Source: Gracilibacillus salinarum
GTDB lineage: Bacteria; Bacillota; Bacilli; Bacillales; Amphibacillaceae
DNA: 64,000 nucleotides
Assembly (NCBI RefSeq): GCF_022919575.1
Contig: NZ_CP095071.1
Coordinates: 3,606,001-3,670,000 of the forward strand
Direction of reading: 5' to 3'
Below are positions 8,286 through 57,200 of the stretch, piece after piece (the stretch's first letter is position 1; every line of letters begins with the position of its first letter). Both the position numbers and the translations under genes were made by a program. The notes beneath the pieces are model-generated. The model did no database searches. It worked only from the letters and a program-made list of their open reading frames with translations, and was not told where the DNA came from.

Positions 8286-9254
8286 ATGGCAAATATTCGT
8301 GATATTGCAAAAATGGCAGGCGTATCGGTGACCACCGTTTCCCGTGTTATTAATAATCACCCCTATGTAACAGAAGAGAAAAGAGAAGCGGTCCAAGAGG
8401 CAATGAACAGTGTAGATTATCAAGTGAATCGTACAGCTGTTAATCTTAGCCAAGGCTCATCGAAATTAATTGGAGTAGTGGTACCATTTGCCAAACATCC
8501 CTATTTCGGGTTATTGATTGAGGGGATAACGGATCAAGCTGCAGAGCACCAGTATCATGTCTTATTAATTCAGACAAAGTATAACCTTGATCGGGAACAA
8601 GAAGCGTTGGATATGCTGAAGCACAAACAGATCGATGGCTTAATCATTTGCTCACACCAAATTGAACTTTCAGTTATCGAATCCTATAGTCGTTACGGGA
8701 AAATTGTGGTTTGTGAAAATGCAGCAGATAACCAGAATGTCGCTTCCGTATTTGTTGATCATTATCAAAGTTTTAATAATGCATTGAACTATTTGCATCA
8801 AAAAAATTATAAGCGAATTGGCTATTGTATCGGCAGAAATTCTGGTTCAAATAGTTATTTCCGCCACAAGGCTTACCAAGATTTTTTAGGGCAGCACCCG
8901 CAACAATCTTTTATTTTTGATAATAATTATTACTTTGAAGATGGCCAAACCATTGTGGAACAGATCAGTCATTTAAAAAGTAAGCCAGATGCACTGCTGG
9001 TCACAAGTGATGTAGTGGCAGCAGGCATTCTGACCGCATGCAATCATGCAGGAACTAAGGTGCCAGATGACTTGGCTATTATTGGTTTTGACAATCAGCC
9101 AATTGCTAAAATGATGGGAATAACGACTTTCGAAATTCCTCACACAACAATGGGAGTGAAGCTGTTTCAACAGGTAAGCAATCAATCATCCGCAGTGCAA
9201 CATGAACAACTGCCGATTACATTAATTGAACGAAATACGGTAGGAAAAAGATAG
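8286..9254 (+). CDS. LacI-family transcriptional regulator
   Basis: 322 residues; AAAGGTGAG precedes the ATG by 8 bases. The N-terminal helix-turn-helix (about 3-25: IRDIAKMAGVSVTTVSRVIN) is followed by the hinge and a periplasmic-binding-protein-like effector domain (about 60-320) with the typical VVVPFAKHPYFG, DGLIICS and AIIGFDNQPIA segments. Such proteins usually repress sugar-use genes and respond to a sugar. No sugar genes lie next to it, only the small membrane ORF in divergent orientation, so its regulon is unknown. Array 1 of 52-bp repeats starts 45 bases after the stop. Confidence 0.92.
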   Translation: MANIRDIAKMAGVSVTTVSRVINNHPYVTEEKREAVQEAMNSVDYQVNRTAVNLSQGSSKLIGVVVPFAKHPYFGLLIEGITDQAAEHQYHVLLIQTKYNLDREQEALDMLKHKQIDGLIICSHQIELSVIESYSRYGKIVVCENAADNQNVASVFVDHYQSFNNALNYLHQKNYKRIGYCIGRNSGSNSYFRHKAYQDFLGQHPQQSFIFDNNYYFEDGQTIVEQISHLKSKPDALLVTSDVVAAGILTACNHAGTKVPDDLAIIGFDNQPIAKMMGITTFEIPHTTMGVKLFQQVSNQSSAVQHEQLPITLIERNTVGKR

Positions 9255-9298
9255 AGAGACAATGTGGCAGTTTTCTGTATAGGAGATTGCTCAAGATG

Positions 9299-9622
9299 TG
9301 TTCAAACGGACAGGAGAGGTTGAGGCAGAGGTGGGATTGTCCGGTAGAAGTGTTTAAACGGACAAAAGAGGTTGAGGCAGAGGTGGAGTTGTCCGGTAGA
9401 AGTGTTTAAACGGACAAAAGAGGTTGAGACAGGGTAGGAGTTGTCCGGTAGAAGTGTTCAAACGGACAATGGAGGTTGAAACAAGGTAGGAGTTGTCCGG
9501 TAGAAGCGTTCAAATGGACAATGGAGGTTGAGGCAGGGTAGGAGTTGTCCGATAGAAGCGTTCAAACGGACAGAAGAGGTTGAAACCGAGGTGGAGTTGT
9601 CCGATAGAAGTGTTTAAACCGA
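9299..9622 (+). repeat. 52-bp tandem array 1 (six units plus a partial)
   Basis: Units begin at 9299, 9351, 9403, 9455, 9507 and 9559, with a partial at 9611, always exactly 52 bp apart and without any insertion or deletion. Each junction contains TTGTCCG and CGGACAA as an inverted repeat around a 15-base loop, so the array reads as a string of hairpins. Units differ by a few substitutions. The arrangement lies in the gap between the LacI gene and the YceI terminator; no ORF is credible here. Confidence 0.9.
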
Positions 9623-9756
9623 GAAAAACATTGGAACAAATGCTGATATGACGTATAAGAGTCCGTGGAGAAAAGAAAGTCCCATCAATATTCCCTTTAC
9701 TCATACACTTCCAAAAAATAGGTAAAATAAATGTCGCAGCGTATTTTATGATATAA

Positions 9757-9804
9757 GAAAAAGCCGACCATCGCACGAAAATTCGTGTGAGAGTCGGCTT
9801 TTAT
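9757..9804 (-). terminator. Terminator of the YceI gene
   Basis: AAAAGCCGAC and GTCGGCTTTT form the outer stem and TCGCACGAA/TTCGTGTGA the inner one. A/T runs flank both sides, so it may act in both directions. Confidence 0.85.
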
Positions 9805-9816
9805 TGTGGCTATATC

Positions 9817-10347
9817 TTATTCTTCTACAACAAACTCAAATCCACCTGAGAATTTAACTTCTTTACCAATTAATACGCCACCAGTTTCAAGTGGTGCATT
9901 CCAAGTTAAGCCGTAATCTTCACGGTTGATTTTTCCTTCTACATCCGCACCTGCGATCGTATTACCTTGCATTGGATCTTTTGCTTTACCATTGTAAGTA
10001 GCAGTGAATGTTTCTTGATTTGTTACACCCTTAATAGTTAGGTCACCAGTGATTTTGTATTCTTCATCGCTAACTTTTTCGATGTTTTTGCTGACGAAAG
10101 TAATGTGTGGATGTTGTTCCACATTGAAGAAATCCTCTGATTTTAAGTGTCCGTTACGGTCGTCATTGTTAGTTTCGATTGATGCTACATCAATTGTCGC
10201 TTTCACACTTGCATTAGTTAAGTCATCGAAACTTCCGTTGAAATCTACATCAAAGCTTTGGAATTCTCCTTTTGCTTTAGATACCATCATATGTTTTACT
10301 TCAAAATTTAAAGCACTGTGTACTTTGTCTAAGTTTACGTTAGTCAT
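9817..10347 (-). CDS. YceI-family lipid-binding-like protein
   Basis: 176 residues from the ATG at 10347, which has GGGAGG 10 bases upstream; the longer frame start has no ribosome site. The whole protein is a YceI lipocalin-like beta barrel: VDKVHSALNFEVKHMM-type start, DDRNGHLKSEDFFNVEQHP in the middle and GLTWNAPLETGG near the end. No signal peptide, so cytosolic, as in other Bacilli. YceI proteins bind polyisoprenoid-like or amide lipids. It is divergent from an HxlR regulator, which probably controls it. Confidence 0.9.
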   Translation of the reverse strand: MTNVNLDKVHSALNFEVKHMMVSKAKGEFQSFDVDFNGSFDDLTNASVKATIDVASIETNNDDRNGHLKSEDFFNVEQHPHITFVSKNIEKVSDEEYKITGDLTIKGVTNQETFTATYNGKAKDPMQGNTIAGADVEGKINREDYGLTWNAPLETGGVLIGKEVKFSGGFEFVVEE

Positions 10348-10393
10348 TTTGAAAATTCCTCCCAAAAAATTAATAACTTACTTTATGTAACTA

Positions 10394-10422
10394 AGTATAC
10401 AAATATTATTTAATTACGTCAA
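10394..10422 (-). promoter_or_regulatory. Sigma-A promoter of the YceI gene
   Basis: On the minus strand TTGACG (10422-10417), a 17-base spacer and TATACT (10399-10394). Around it are ACTTA/TAAGT inverted repeats and AT-rich sequence that could be HxlR binding sites; that part is inference. Confidence 0.75.
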
Positions 10423-10485
10423 GTAAATAATTAATTTTATTTCTGTAATAAAATTTGCTATACTATTATTAAAGAGGTGAGTTTC

Positions 10486-10809
10486 ATGGCTGATAAAGCA
10501 ATTTGCCCAAAGTTTGAATCGGCATTGAATATATTAAATAAGCGTTGGACTGGTTTAATTATTTTCCAATTACTAGAAGGTGCACAACGATTTACTACGA
10601 TCGAATCAGCGATTGGTATTAGCGGTCGTGTACTTTCTGAACGCTTAAAGGATCTTGAAAAAGAAGGCATTGTGATACGCCACGTGTACAATGAGACACC
10701 AGTCCGGATCGAATATGATTTAACGGAAAAAGGTCACGCTTTAAAACCCGTTCTCGAAAGTATCCAAACATGGGCAGACGGATGGATGAATAATCAATCC
10801 TTGGTATAA
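10486..10809 (+). CDS. HxlR-family winged-helix regulator
   Basis: 107 residues from the ATG at 10486 (AAAGAGGTG upstream). CPKFESALNILNKRWTGLII is the classic HxlR opening with the conserved Cys at residue 6, and GISGRVLSERLKDLEKEGIV is the recognition region. Several HxlR members (HypR, YodB) sense electrophiles or redox change through this Cys. Divergent from yceI with a shared 138-bp regulatory gap, so control of yceI and itself is likely. Confidence 0.9.
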   Translation: MADKAICPKFESALNILNKRWTGLIIFQLLEGAQRFTTIESAIGISGRVLSERLKDLEKEGIVIRHVYNETPVRIEYDLTEKGHALKPVLESIQTWADGWMNNQSLV

Positions 10810-10834
10810 ATTATTCCCAATATATTCTTTATTA

Positions 10835-10867
10835 AAACTGTGAAGTTGATGCTTCACAGTTTTTTTA
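10835..10867 (+). terminator. Terminator after the HxlR gene
   Basis: AAACTGTGAAG and CTTCACAGTTT form a strong stem around TTGATG-type loop sequence, followed by a run of T up to 10866. Confidence 0.9.
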
Positions 10868-11070
10868 TGATCACAGAGGCATGAAGTTTGGTTCCTGTAA
10901 TATGGATAATGAAAAGTGGATCTGACTGATTTTATGTACATTTTGATATATTATATCTGCTTAGCAAAGCTCCGGAAATATGCCCCGCGTCCTGTGGGCG
11001 AGTGGATGCAAAAGGATTTGAAATGCAAGAAGATGGAGAAATTCAAGCAAAAGAGTGATACACGAGGTTT

Positions 11071-11465
11071 CAACGCATGAAGAGTAGTGGACTTCATGTG
11101 TTGGGGGGTGCAAGCGACCGCTCAACGCATGAAGAAGAGGGAACTTCAGGCAAAAGGATTAGCAAGCGACCGCTCAACGCATGAAGATGAGAAAACTTCA
11201 GGCGAAAGGATTAGTAAGCGACCGCTCAACGCATGAAGATGAGAAAACTTCAGGCGAAAGAAGTAGCAAGCGACCGCTCAACGCATGAAGAAGAGGGAAC
11301 TTCAGGCGAAAGGATCAGCAAGCGAACGGCCAACGCATGAAGATGAGAAAACTTCAGGCGAAAGGATTAGCAAGCGACCGCCCAACGCATGAAGAGGAGG
11401 AAACTTCAGACGAAAGAAGTAGCAAGCGAACGCCTAACGCATGAAGAAGAGCAATCTTCAAGCGA
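11071..11465 (+). repeat. 52-bp tandem array 2 (seven units plus a partial)
   Basis: Units begin with CAACGCATGAAG at 11071, 11123, 11175, 11227, 11279, 11331, 11383 and 11435 (last one partial), all exactly 52 bp apart. Each has TGAAG...CTTCA as a small hairpin and a conserved AGCAAGCGACCGC segment. The sequence is unrelated to array 1. Confidence 0.9.
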
Positions 11466-11623
11466 ACCTGATAAACATCATCTGTCAGTTCATAGAAAAA
11501 GCCTGAATCTAATAAACTCCAGGCCTTCTTTTTAACACCTCAAAAAGATTTTAACGAAGAAGCAGCTTAGCGAAGCGAAAATTTAGAATATATCAAGTAT
11601 AAGAAAAACATATACTCACTCTC

Positions 11624-12106
11624 ATTAGCGAGATGAGAAAAGGAGCCAAAAGTAGAATGCGATGAAATGAGATTTGTATCGTTTAACGAGAAAGGAACCA
11701 AAAGTGGTAAGCAGTCGCGAGAGATTTGTATCGTTTAACGAGAAAGGAACCAAAAGTGGTAAGCAGTCGCGAGAGATTGGTATCGTTTAACGAGAAAGGA
11801 ACCAAAAGTGGTAAGCAGTCGCGAGAGATTGGTATCGTTTAACGAGAAAGGAACCAAAAGTGGTAAGCAGTCGCGAGAGATTGGTATCGTTTAACGAGAA
11901 AGGAACCAAAAGTGGTAAGCAGTCGCGAGAGATTTGTATCGTTTAACGAGAAAGGAACCAAAAGTGGTAAGCAGTCGCGAGAGATTTGTATCGTTTAACG
12001 AGAAAGGAACCAAAAGTGGTAAGCAGTCGCGAGAGATTTGTATCGTTTAGCGAGAAAGGAACCAAAAGTGGTAAGCAGTCGTGAGAGATTTGTATCGTTT
12101 AAAAAG
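11624..12106 (+). repeat. 52-bp tandem array 3 (eight units, degenerate first, partial last)
   Basis: GTATCGTTTAACGAG recurs at 11676, 11728, 11780, 11832, 11884, 11936, 11988, 12040 and 12092, always 52 bp apart; a diverged unit precedes at about 11624. Units are almost identical, so amplification is recent or homogenised. Each holds the near-palindrome TCGTTTAACGA and the hairpin ACCAAAAGTGGT. Sequence unrelated to arrays 1 and 2. Confidence 0.92.
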
Positions 12107-12323
12107 AAAGAAGACAAATGAAGGTGTTTCCAGTCTGTTTTTGTCTCCTTGAAGCACATCCAAGGCCGGCACATAGACTTCCAAAGGACGAAAAGTAGCT
12201 GGTAGAAGGTGTCGTAGCACATGAATCATTTCAAAATGACCGCTATGTGCTACTTTACATAATAGTTAGGTAATCATATATATAAATAGTGAAGAACGAG
12301 CGGATCTTTTTAATAGTTTTTAT

Positions 12324-12469
12324 CACGGCGCTAACCGTCCGTAATACCCTCACTTCAAGAGTCGAGAGATAAATAAGAAGCTGATTGGGGATAACCGGAC
12401 GATAACTTCCTGATAAGTTTCGCTAACCAGTGGCGGTTAAAAACCCTACTGATTGAAGTCTCACTTTAT
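12324..12469 (+). mobile_element. PATE-like non-autonomous IS200/IS605-type element, copy 1 (146 bp)
   Basis: Starts CACGGCGCTAACCGTCCGTA directly after TTTTTAT and ends GAAGTCTCACTTTAT. Copy 2 at 36885-37018 has the same ends and the same TTTTTAT left flank. Shared internal blocks are CGGACGATAACTTCCTGATA and AGTTTCGCTAAC. Subterminal hairpins are present, the right one degenerate here (AGTGGCGGTTAAAAACCCTACT). No target duplication and a fixed 5' flank are the marks of IS200/IS605 single-strand transposition. It carries no gene, so it would need a transposase from elsewhere. Confidence 0.7.
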
Positions 12470-12492
12470 AAGTGTGTTTAACACCTTCTTCA

Positions 12493-12522
12493 TTGTGCAA
12501 GTATGTACAAAACGATTACAAT
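12493..12522 (+). promoter_or_regulatory. Possible promoter of the nucleoside hydrolase operon
   Basis: TTGTGC (12493-12498), 18-base spacer, TACAAT (12517-12522), about 40 bases before the start codon. Confidence 0.5.
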
Positions 12523-12565
12523 AATGGTACAGAAAACTTCTTCATTACATAGAGGAGGAATTGAC

Positions 12566-13507
12566 ATGAAGGTGATTCTTGACTGTGACCCGGGGCATGA
12601 TGATGCTGTTGCGATTATACTGGCTGCCTCTGGCATCAGTCCTCTCGAGATTGTTGGGATAACTACGGTAGCAGGCAATGTACAAGTTGAAAAAAATACA
12701 TTAAACGCGCTAAAGGTGTGCGATGTTATTGGATTAGATCACGTTCCGGTAGTACAAGGTGCGACAAGACCATTGGTAAAAGAAGCGGAGATTGCGGAGG
12801 AAATTCATGGTGAGACCGGGCTTGATGGGCCGCAATTACCGAATGAACCGAGTAGACAAGCGATCGATCAGCATGCGGTGGATTTTATCATCGAAAAACT
12901 GCTCCAAGCTGATGAACCGATCACGCTAGTGCCAACGGGACCGTTAACTAATATTGCACTTGCTTTAGTGAAAGAGCCGAAAATAAAACAAAACATACAG
13001 GAAATTGTCTTAATGGGTGGTGGCACCTTTGGAAACTGGACGCCAGCAGCTGAATTTAATATATATGTAGATGCAGAGGCAGCTAAGATTGTTTTCGAAA
13101 GTGGGATACCTGTGCGAATGTTTGGCTTAGATGTAACCCACCAAGTATTAGCAACAACGGAGACAGTAGATGCATTGCGTAAAATGGGGAACCCGGTCAG
13201 TGGATTTGTTTCAGATCTGCTTACCTTCTTTATTCAGGCATATCAAGATCATTTTGACTTTCCAGGTGGACCGATCCATGATGCTTGTACGATCATTCAT
13301 TTAATAGATCCGGACATTTTCACCTTTGAGCATGTACATGTCGCAATTGAAACAAATGGTGAACATACATACGGAATGACAGTTGTCGATCGCTTGGGAG
13401 TAACAGGCCAAGAACCAAACACCTATTTTGCAACAACACTTGATCATGAAAAATTTTGGTCCGTTTTTAAAGAAGCGATGGTTTCCTATGGAGAGAGGAG
13501 TGAATAG
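12566..13507 (+). CDS. Inosine-uridine preferring nucleoside hydrolase
   Basis: 313 residues from the ATG at 12566, with GAGGAGG 7 bases upstream; the frame extends further up without a ribosome site. The N-terminal calcium/catalytic motif DCDPGHDDA (residues 6-14) is intact, with VPTGPLTNIA, MGGG and NIYVDAEAA in the middle and GGPIHDAC near 240. It should cleave ribonucleosides into base and ribose in the cytosol. The following ribokinase would phosphorylate the ribose, making a short nucleoside salvage route. Substrate preference is not deducible. Confidence 0.92.
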   Translation: MKVILDCDPGHDDAVAIILAASGISPLEIVGITTVAGNVQVEKNTLNALKVCDVIGLDHVPVVQGATRPLVKEAEIAEEIHGETGLDGPQLPNEPSRQAIDQHAVDFIIEKLLQADEPITLVPTGPLTNIALALVKEPKIKQNIQEIVLMGGGTFGNWTPAAEFNIYVDAEAAKIVFESGIPVRMFGLDVTHQVLATTETVDALRKMGNPVSGFVSDLLTFFIQAYQDHFDFPGGPIHDACTIIHLIDPDIFTFEHVHVAIETNGEHTYGMTVVDRLGVTGQEPNTYFATTLDHEKFWSVFKEAMVSYGERSE

Positions 13508-51066: not shown

Positions 51067-52454
51067 ACGAAGAATGTGGTGTATTCGCGATTTGGGGACA
51101 TGAGAAAGCAGCCGAAATGACATATTACGGTTTACATGCTCTTCAGCATCGTGGACAGGAAGGTGCAGGAATCGTAACAACAGATGGTGAAAGATTACAC
51201 GCTCACAAGGGTGTAGGATTAGTCAATGATGTCTTTTCAGAAAACGAATTTTCGCGCTTGCAAGGGCATGCGGCGATTGGTCATGTACGCTATGCAACAC
51301 AAGGCGGTGGCGGCTTTGAGAACGTGCAGCCGCTCGTTTTCCGCTCCCAGACAAACAGTATGGCGCTGGCGCATAATGGAAACTTGGTAAATGCCAATCA
51401 GCTTAAAAGTCAGCTGGAAGCACAAGGCAGTATTTTGCAAACTACATCAGATACGGAAGTTATTGCGCACTTAGTGAAGCGCAGTGGCAATGTGCCGATG
51501 GAGGATGCGATCACATCAGCGTTAGGAATGATTAAAGGAGCATATGCGTTCTCGATTTTAACAGAGGACCAGTTATTTATTGGCCTTGATCCGCGTGGTT
51601 TGCGCCCGTTATCAATTGGCAGATTAGGAGATGCATATGTAGTAGCTTCCGAAACCTGTGCATTTGATTTAATCGGTGCAACCTATGAGCGCGAAGTTCG
51701 ACCAGGTGAATTAATGGTGATCGATCATGATGGACTGCGCACTAAGCAGTTCACATCACCGATGCAACGTACGCTTTGTTCAATGGAATATGTTTATTTC
51801 TCTCGTCCAGACAGTGACTTGAACGAGAAAAATGTACATGCGAGCCGTAAAACAATGGGAAAACAATTAGCATTGGAATCACCAATTGAGGCAGATGTTG
51901 TAACAGGTGTACCTGATTCCAGTATTTCGGCAGCCATCGGTTTTTCCGAAGCAACGGGCATTCCATACGAGCTTGGTCTAATCAAAAACCGCTATGTCGG
52001 TCGTACCTTTATTCAGCCTTCACAAGAATTACGTGAGCAAGGTGTAAAAATGAAACTGTCGCCTGTCCGAGGCATTGTAGACGGTAAACGTGTTGTCATG
52101 GTCGATGATTCCATAGTTCGTGGAACAACAAGTCGTCGTATTGTTCGACTTTTAAAAGAGGCAGGAGCTACAGAAGTGCATGTAAGAATTGCTTCACCTC
52201 CCATCCAGAATCCTTGTTACTACGGTATTGATACCTCGACAAAAGGGGAATTAATCGCATCTAATTATTCGATTGAGGAGATGCGCGAGATTATTGGAGC
52301 AGACAGCCTTGCCTTTTTATCTGCAGAAGGATTAGAGCATTCAATTGTAGAAGAACGTGATGTGCACGATTATGGCGTCTGCCAGGCATGTTTTACAGGA
52401 AATTATCCAACGGAAATCTATCCGGATACGATCATTCCTGCCTATAAAGAGTAA
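51042..52454 (+). CDS. purF: Amidophosphoribosyltransferase
   Basis: 470 residues from GTG 51042, seven bases after AAGGAG and overlapping purL by 25 bases. The propeptide [11 protein letters not shown] precedes the catalytic Cys12 of CGVFAIWG, as in the B. subtilis enzyme. PRPP site [16 protein letters not shown]; cysteines in TLCSMEY, NPCYYG and VCQACF fit the 4Fe-4S ligands of the Gram-positive enzyme. First committed step of purine synthesis. Confidence 0.97.
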
Positions 52455-52545
52455 AGTGGCCATAAAACGGGTGAAAGTGGCCATAAAATTGCTAAAAGTG
52501 GCCAAAAAACACTCGAAAGTGGCCATAAAAAAAGAACTCACCATA
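52453..52545 (+). repeat. 21-bp tandem repeat in the purF-purM gap
   Basis: AAAGTGGCC recurs at 52453, 52474, 52495 and 52516, exactly 21 bp apart, mostly followed by ATAAAA; a weaker fifth relative (TCACCATAAAG) follows at about 52538. This 105-base spacer is unusual in an operon whose other genes overlap or lie within about 60 bases. The purF stop TAA is at 52452-52454, so the array starts at the stop. Confidence 0.88.
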
Positions 52546-57100: not shown

Positions 57101-57200
57101 ATTCGCGAATAAAGAGAGGAGATCGCGAATAAAAAGGGAAATTCGCGAATAAAGAGAGGAGATCGCTAATAAAGAGGGAAATTCGCGAATAAAGCGATAG
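57101..57200 (+). repeat. 20-bp tandem array after the pur operon
   Basis: CGCGAATAAA-type units start at 57101, 57121, 57141, 57161 and 57181, alternating ATTCGCGAATAA and GATCGCGAATAA forms, so the higher-order period is 40. Each has the palindrome ATTCGCGAAT or a variant. No gene in 57069-57355. Confidence 0.88.

Follow-up and report, generated by a model that had tools for sequence, protein, structure and literature searches.

The window analysed here spans 64,000 nucleotides of Gracilibacillus salinarum (positions 3,606,001–3,670,000 of a single-contig 4.80-Mb chromosome, genome G000) and contains three tandem arrays of 52-nt units, all on the forward strand and set among genes for a LacI-type regulator, a YceI protein, an HxlR regulator and a nucleoside-hydrolase. 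Judged by the YceI gene, the closest named relatives are species of Gracilibacillus. Array 1 (9294..9627, 6.4 units, purine fraction 0.68) is placed 3' of the LacI-type regulator gene and is convergent with the YceI gene, as judged from the Pfam assignments of these neighbours. Array 2 (11071..11466, about 7.5 units) and array 3 (11624..12110, about 9 units) belong to families referred to as F2 and F3, respectively. Tandem Repeats Finder (TRF) delimited the three arrays at 9294–9627, 11110–11466 and 11669–12110 with a period of 52 throughout, and by motif positions arrays 2 and 3 begin further back, at ~11071 and ~11624. An initial sequence-only reading of this DNA had described three arrays with a 52-bp period, free of insertions and deletions and unrelated in sequence. 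Both points held up: in addition to the TRF period, each of the 20 motif-to-motif steps measures exactly 52 nt (5/5, 7/7 and 8/8 in arrays 1, 2 and 3), and blastn assigns the arrays to three separate families with no detectable similarity to one another.

The class was surveyed in alternate 20-kb blocks covering 2.40 Mb of the 4.80-Mb chromosome (8,000 bases of one block are N); an earlier repeat-match search had scored the best 40 of 430 candidates. This half-genome sample holds 57 arrays of at least 3.5 copies, of which 42 have a period of 51–53 nt, exactly 52 in 39 of them; the next commonest unit length is 21 nt (7 arrays). The possibility that 52 is not enriched genome-wide, which the sequence-only reading had set against its own proposal, is contradicted by this tabulation. 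With the threshold lowered to 1.8 copies, the sample yields 52 arrays of 51–53 nt, which single-linkage clustering groups into seven families (24, 13, 7, 5, 1, 1 and 1 members) at E 1e-5 and into six at E 1e-3. F3 accounts for 24 arrays, F2 for 13 (14 at a looser cut) and the family of array 1 for 7; the last of these and the 51-nt family are partly alike by eye. No exact 5-, 6- or 7-mer is common to the seven families beyond composition, exact k-mers being all that was scored. The best autocorrelation lag is 52 in 40 of the 43 arrays of this class with 3 or more copies, and with six to seven families in one genome the unit length is constrained independently of sequence, as had been proposed from the window. 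At 10.4 bp per helical turn, 52 nt corresponds to five turns and the unit of the 21-nt class to about two. A search with nhmmer from a 21-nt seed gave no match.

Overlap with called genes (own gene-calling script) does not exceed 30 bp for any of the 52 arrays, and the class is therefore noncoding. The arrays are homogenised internally. In F3 units the core hardly varies, and the array-specific part is mainly the last ~14 nt, with a mean unit identity of 0.917 within arrays (20 arrays) versus 0.843 between arrays; for F2, mean identity within arrays over aligned unit columns is 0.873 (7 arrays). The inverted repeat noticed in each unit of the window arrays fared less well as a functional feature. 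The 7-nt arms TTGTCCG/CGGACAA are longer than usual for chance (2% of shuffles get to 7), whereas the 5-nt arms TGAAG/CTTCA and TCGTT/AACGA are at shuffle level. Over 43 units genome-wide, the longest perfect arms average 4.84 versus 4.44 in shuffles and exceed chance (p<0.05) in only 3, perfect arms alone being scored. A tandem array with a 118-nt unit (5.9 + 2.8 copies; L010:2042-3293) adjoins an F3 array at ~3.82 Mb.

The arrays are polarised by replichore. In a frame defined by dnaA at 2.941 Mb and by GC-skew switches near 2.95 and 0.53 Mb, the leading strand is the purine-rich strand in 50 of the 52 arrays, the discordant arrays being those at 1,405,834 and 4,569,338. The purine-rich strand is the lagging-strand template and is almost always in the leading-strand sense. 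Counted as clusters with two or more units, leading orientation is seen in 28/29 F3, 15/16 F2, 6/6 F1 and 4/5 F51 clusters, the odd F2 cluster being mixed and weak. The purine fraction is ~0.66 in typical arrays versus 0.52 for the intergenic leading strand. Classed by flanking genes relative to the leading strand, the gaps that hold arrays are tandem leading for 26 arrays, convergent for 18, tandem lagging for 4 and divergent for 1; the other 3 arrays are at block edges. Leading orientation is kept by 18/18 arrays at convergent sites and by 4/4 arrays between two lagging genes, and both discordant arrays sit between two leading genes; flanking transcription therefore does not set the orientation. 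Of the 8 arrays in the same genome with units of 20–21 or 40 nt and at least 3.5 copies, 7 are leading.

Arrays of three or more copies are missing, as far as sampled, from the quarter of the chromosome closest to the terminus. On a scale of relative position from 0 at the origin to 1 at the terminus, none of 43 such arrays lies past 0.725, although 27.5% of the sampled blocks are there (p about 1e-6), and the outermost is at 0.7154. The 0.725 cut was picked after the data had been seen; the round cuts 0.75, 0.8 and 0.9 give p values of 6e-6, 9e-6 and 4e-3. Intergenic DNA past 0.73 amounts to 24%. The edge is sharp and symmetric, with 52-nt arrays ending 1.71 and 1.70 Mb from dnaA. Two short F3 remnants are found in the terminus-proximal part (11,569–11,699 and 1,166,859–1,166,969), and 5 of 20 copies of the repeat that flanks F3 on its 3' side lie past 0.725; it is thus the amplified arrays, rather than the element itself, that are lacking near the terminus.

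The arrays of the window are bordered by further features on the forward strand. An F2 leader (11001..11070) recurs by blastn before some other F2 arrays (1531384, 4333404, 4640359), and a second leader type is visible in the alignment of F2 arrays. The F2 trailer (11467..11534) has at its end a terminator-like hairpin (~11500–11533) with T-runs on both strands. Both hairpin arms are present in 6 of 10 aligned F2 ends and the right arm alone in a seventh; the window copy has a long loop and is not among the hairpins listed by a scan allowing loops up to 8. From these trailer hairpins, F2 at least may be transcribed. The F3 leader occupies 11542..11623, its part 11542–11609 being repeated at other loci (blastn), and matches to 11467–11640 are in leading orientation in 13 of 13 cases, with self and F2 trailers counted. 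The F3 3' flank (12111..12263) is a dispersed repeat of 20 loci in the sample, including the window copy, oriented 18:2 leading.

Two other dispersed elements lie close by. A repeat beside array 2 (about 10880–10999 of the window, holding CTCCGGAAATATG) has 147 intergenic loci in the half genome and served as a control: 73 are leading versus 74 lagging and 45 are terminus-proximal, so that neither bias is seen. At some array-free sites this repeat apparently belongs to a larger structured element, several hundred bases long. A 155-bp element near array 3 (12317–12470) has 70 loci in the half genome, 55:15 leading, of which 9 lie past relative position 0.725. An Rfam search over 8800–12700, a stretch that includes the 155-bp element, gave no match at E up to 1. 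Arrays of the 20–21 nt class are also found by TRF in the window, at 52453–52530 and 57101–57194 (units like AAAGTGGCCATAAAA and ATTCGCGAATAAA). The purine-rich strand is leading in both, as judged by eye from the unit for 57101–57194, and the array at 52453–52530 has six relatives elsewhere in the half-genome sample.

Among 41 genomes searched (best 7 candidates per genome), repeats of the window's genome were matched only in that genome and in a sister species, G011. Here, 24 of 26 F3 loci are leading and the strand flips next to dnaA (1.157 Mb). The two lagging arrays (C1 1297585 and 1511798; L179 and L201) have flanks with reversed GC skew (-0.10 and -0.06) and look as if carried by local inversions or placed next to genes on the lagging strand; slightly reversed skew is also seen in the flanks of a few concordant arrays. 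With 34 of 34 candidates scored, the stretch from 2.85 to 4.26 Mb is free of F3 loci. Some G011 arrays occupy sites common with the window's genome, and at five G011 sites both flanks match nearly adjacent window-genome DNA where no array is listed, which suggests partial turnover of arrays between the sister species. Orthologous arrays are only sometimes nearest relatives (rank 1, 13, 5, 1 and 3 of 24).

A wider search with nine published repeat consensi, each used as two copies in a row, returned matches in 6 of 299 genomes (best 2 candidates per genome), including one near-complete genome with strong matches, G239, which is from another bacterial family and carries a different repeat (B. 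indicus type). Its 84 matches were merged by eye into 22 loci, 21 of them leading, and the strand flips between the last '-' locus at 1.78 Mb and the first '+' locus at 1.94 Mb, with dnaA at 1.80 Mb. The window's genome has no match to the G239-type repeat (best 2 of 18 candidates scored). There is no locus in the ~0.68 Mb opposite dnaA of G239, which is weak evidence alone, and the largest relative position is 0.85; in G011 it is 0.75 (F3 only). Arm positions in both genomes derive from rounded genome lengths. Absence from the terminus is weaker in these two genomes than in the window's genome. Alkalibacillus (G335, 8 matches) and G. dipsosauri (G336, 1 match) have too few matches for a map. 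In named relatives (15 loci), the purine-rich strand coincides with the locally G-rich one in 5/5 arrays of 51–52 nt. No 52-nt array was found in 100 kb of G002, where the density in the window's genome would predict ~2. Other Gracilibacillus species have long 20–21 nt arrays of CTTCTTGCAACTTTC type, with 49.5 copies at L028:13972-14962 and 17.5 copies at L030:13963-14325, both ~3.4 kb beyond the 3' end of a YceI gene.

The rules of position and orientation might be explained at the level of RNA or of DNA. If the arrays were noncoding RNA genes giving repetitive leading-strand transcripts, their co-orientation would be the usual bias of strongly transcribed genes. The terminator-like hairpin at 6 of 10 aligned F2 array ends is in keeping with such genes, as is the avoidance of divergent promoter regions (1 of 49 classed arrays versus 242 of 1286 intergenic gaps), and the 52-nt satellites of B. 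coagulans are reported to appear in RNA-seq (PMC8161180 and PMC8625621, both by Subirana and Messeguer). By our own gene and terminator calls, however, a sense terminator-like hairpin is found 3' of only 11 of 40 arrays, as against 27 of the 37 arrays with an upstream leading-strand gene, in which it lies between that gene and the array. In control array-free gaps of 250–1500 bp, a terminator-like hairpin is found anywhere in 173/249 tandem leading and 72/93 convergent cases; the presence of a terminator is not unusual in array gaps, and what matters is that the hairpin mostly precedes the array. RNA folding is also weaker in the sense (mean z -1.24) than in the antisense direction (-1.96), there is no promoter excess within 9200–12550 (5 found versus 7.1 expected), and Rfam is silent over the stretch searched. 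The hairpin-string RNA envisaged in the sequence-only reading keeps the sense hairpins after 11 of 40 arrays but loses ground on their more frequent position before the array and on the folding comparison, and RNA genes appear rather improbable. As terminators mostly precede the arrays and antisense RNA folds better than sense, a cause at the DNA level is favoured. As single-stranded DNA, the leading-sense strand has a mean folding z of -1.72 and the other strand -1.42, slightly better than shuffles.

At the DNA level, one proposal is that polarity reflects nothing more than the usual skew of genes or base composition toward the leading strand. Indeed the leading strand carries 78% of called genes (1613/2076) and is slightly purine-rich in its intergenic parts, and the 155-bp neighbour is about as biased as the genes; but 50/52 exceeds the gene rate of 0.777 (p 2.5e-4), a purine fraction of 0.61 or more is reached by only 14.6% of intergenic 52-nt windows, the repeat beside array 2 is evenly split, and polarity is kept at all four sites between two lagging genes, which makes this proposal improbable. 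Elements of the IS200/IS605 group of insertion sequences (IS) show replication-oriented insertion, and spread of elements resembling repetitive extragenic palindromic (REP) sequences by a single-strand Y1 transposase could in principle give the same polarity. The window's genome does have one Y1 transposase gene, and matches occur in 5 of 7 other array-bearing genomes, two of them fragments. The window-genome copy nevertheless reads, from its sequence, as a standard IS200-type element, and the 500 bp on either side of it match no array. Spread by Y1 or by the REP-associated tyrosine transposases (RAYT) as a general mechanism was rejected, since no Y1 transposase is present in the complete array-bearing genomes G011 and G239, and we regard it as very improbable. 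A functional landmark is possible, if on balance unlikely: the arrays would be polar platforms, with five helical turns per unit, recognised by a DNA-binding or translocating protein with a role in organising or segregating the arms of the chromosome, and would have to be kept out of the terminus domain like the Noc sites of B. subtilis, which PMC4331003 places round most of the chromosome and away from the terminus. Polarity combined with a sharp, symmetric exclusion is what such a landmark would show, and the array limits fall ~1.7 Mb from dnaA on both arms in the window's genome and at 1.78 and 1.74 Mb in G239. Less easily accommodated are the seven families of one genome without a common motif, the partial turnover between sister species, and the unequal limits in G011 (1.69 versus ~1.40 Mb for the two arms, for F3 only and with a rounded genome length). 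Nor are the core octamers of the arrays much skewed by strand outside them, with genome-wide leading:lagging counts of 93:101 for AACCAAAA and 58:44 for GATTTGTA.

The explanation that we favour, with a probability of roughly 40%, is that the arrays are DNA-level satellites retained only when co-oriented with the replication fork. Arrays would expand, homogenise and persist only in this orientation, and tandem units copied the wrong way, or lying in regions without a constant fork direction such as the vicinity of the terminus, would be lost or never amplified. Orientation and step length would then be set by the replication or repair machinery rather than by a sequence-specific binding protein. 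Fork-co-oriented amplification or retention fits because it brings together the sequence independence, the purine asymmetry, the polarity, the homogenisation, the turnover and a terminus gap that contains only remnants. Several points weigh against it. We know of no fork process with a 52-nt step. The arrays of one family are not independent insertions, and wrong-way single units, which would be predicted if arrays in that orientation simply contracted, are absent from the counted clusters, from which single matches with E above 0.01 were dropped. The sharp symmetric edge fits a defined domain better than a gradually mixed fork direction. Part of the bias may be general to intergenic elements, given the neighbours oriented 55:15 and 18:2, and in named relatives the arrays of 20–41 nt (20–21 and 40–41) are mixed in polarity.

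A bolder reading is that the satellites would mark the chromosome arms in a polar way by unit length and not by sequence, so that any purine-asymmetric 52-bp periodic array would be read or made by a five-turn machine coupled to replication or segregation, along the leading strand to ~1.7–1.8 Mb from the origin and not in the terminus domain. A limit at this distance is seen on both arms in the window's genome and in G239 and on one arm in G011; we consider this reading doubtful. Polarity and terminus exclusion provide positional rules for puzzling satellites that have a fixed length and no conserved sequence. These rules can be checked in every complete genome bearing such arrays, point to replication or segregation and not to transcription, and predict the behaviour of inverted and transplanted arrays.

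Comparison with known systems helps to place the arrays. Clustered regularly interspaced short palindromic repeats (CRISPR) likewise combine constant and variable segments at regular spacing, but in the arrays described here the variable segment is much alike inside an array and differs between arrays. CRISPR was rejected on the lack of unique spacers within arrays (the within-array identities of F3 and F2 given above), in agreement with the sequence-only reading. REP elements and the bacterial interspersed mosaic elements (BIME) are intergenic repeats often found 3' of genes. With RAYT, they resemble the arrays as repeated intergenic elements; the arrays, however, are strictly head-to-tail 52-nt tandems, and the complete array-bearing genomes G011 and G239 lack a Y1 transposase.

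The FtsK orienting polar sequences (KOPS) and SpoIIIE recognition sequences (SRS) are purine-rich and oriented along the leading strand, and the density of KOPS climbs toward the terminus. The SRS octamer GAGAAGGG is skewed 33:7 toward the leading strand genome-wide, as is GAGAAAGG (66:30), a purine-rich octamer contained in F3 that is one letter off GAGAAGGG. The arrays share the leading-strand orientation of KOPS/SRS and differ in having 52-nt units rather than octamers, in stopping short of the terminus and in lacking a motif common to the families; KOPS/SRS, read by FtsK and SpoIIIE, are described in PMC5869595 as short sequences with orientation-specific recognition. Noc sites are similarly widespread yet terminus-free (PMC4331003), but they are discrete palindromes, whereas the arrays of the window's genome are polar, tandem and without a common motif.

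The closest counterpart is the class of 52-nt tandem repeats described in Bacillus and other Firmicutes by Subirana and Messeguer (PMC8161180), which are noncoding, constant in length and variable in sequence, occur as several families per genome, and are accompanied by a second class of 20–21 nt satellites. The Gracilibacillus arrays agree with that class in their 51–53 nt units, in same-length families of unlike sequence, in being noncoding, in constant and variable parts of the unit, in species-specific sequence with partial conservation among close relatives and in the presence of a 20–21 nt second class. The single tandem repeat tabulated for B. subtilis 168 in the published work falls outside the 52-nt class. 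PMC8161180 contains neither the word 'orientation' nor the word 'terminus', and no work on the polarity of such repeats was apparent among the papers listed by a literature search, at the level of titles and the starts of abstracts. The Gracilibacillus arrays are thus a new carrier of the published 52-nt satellite class, and what they add to PMC8161180 is replichore polarity and exclusion from the terminus.

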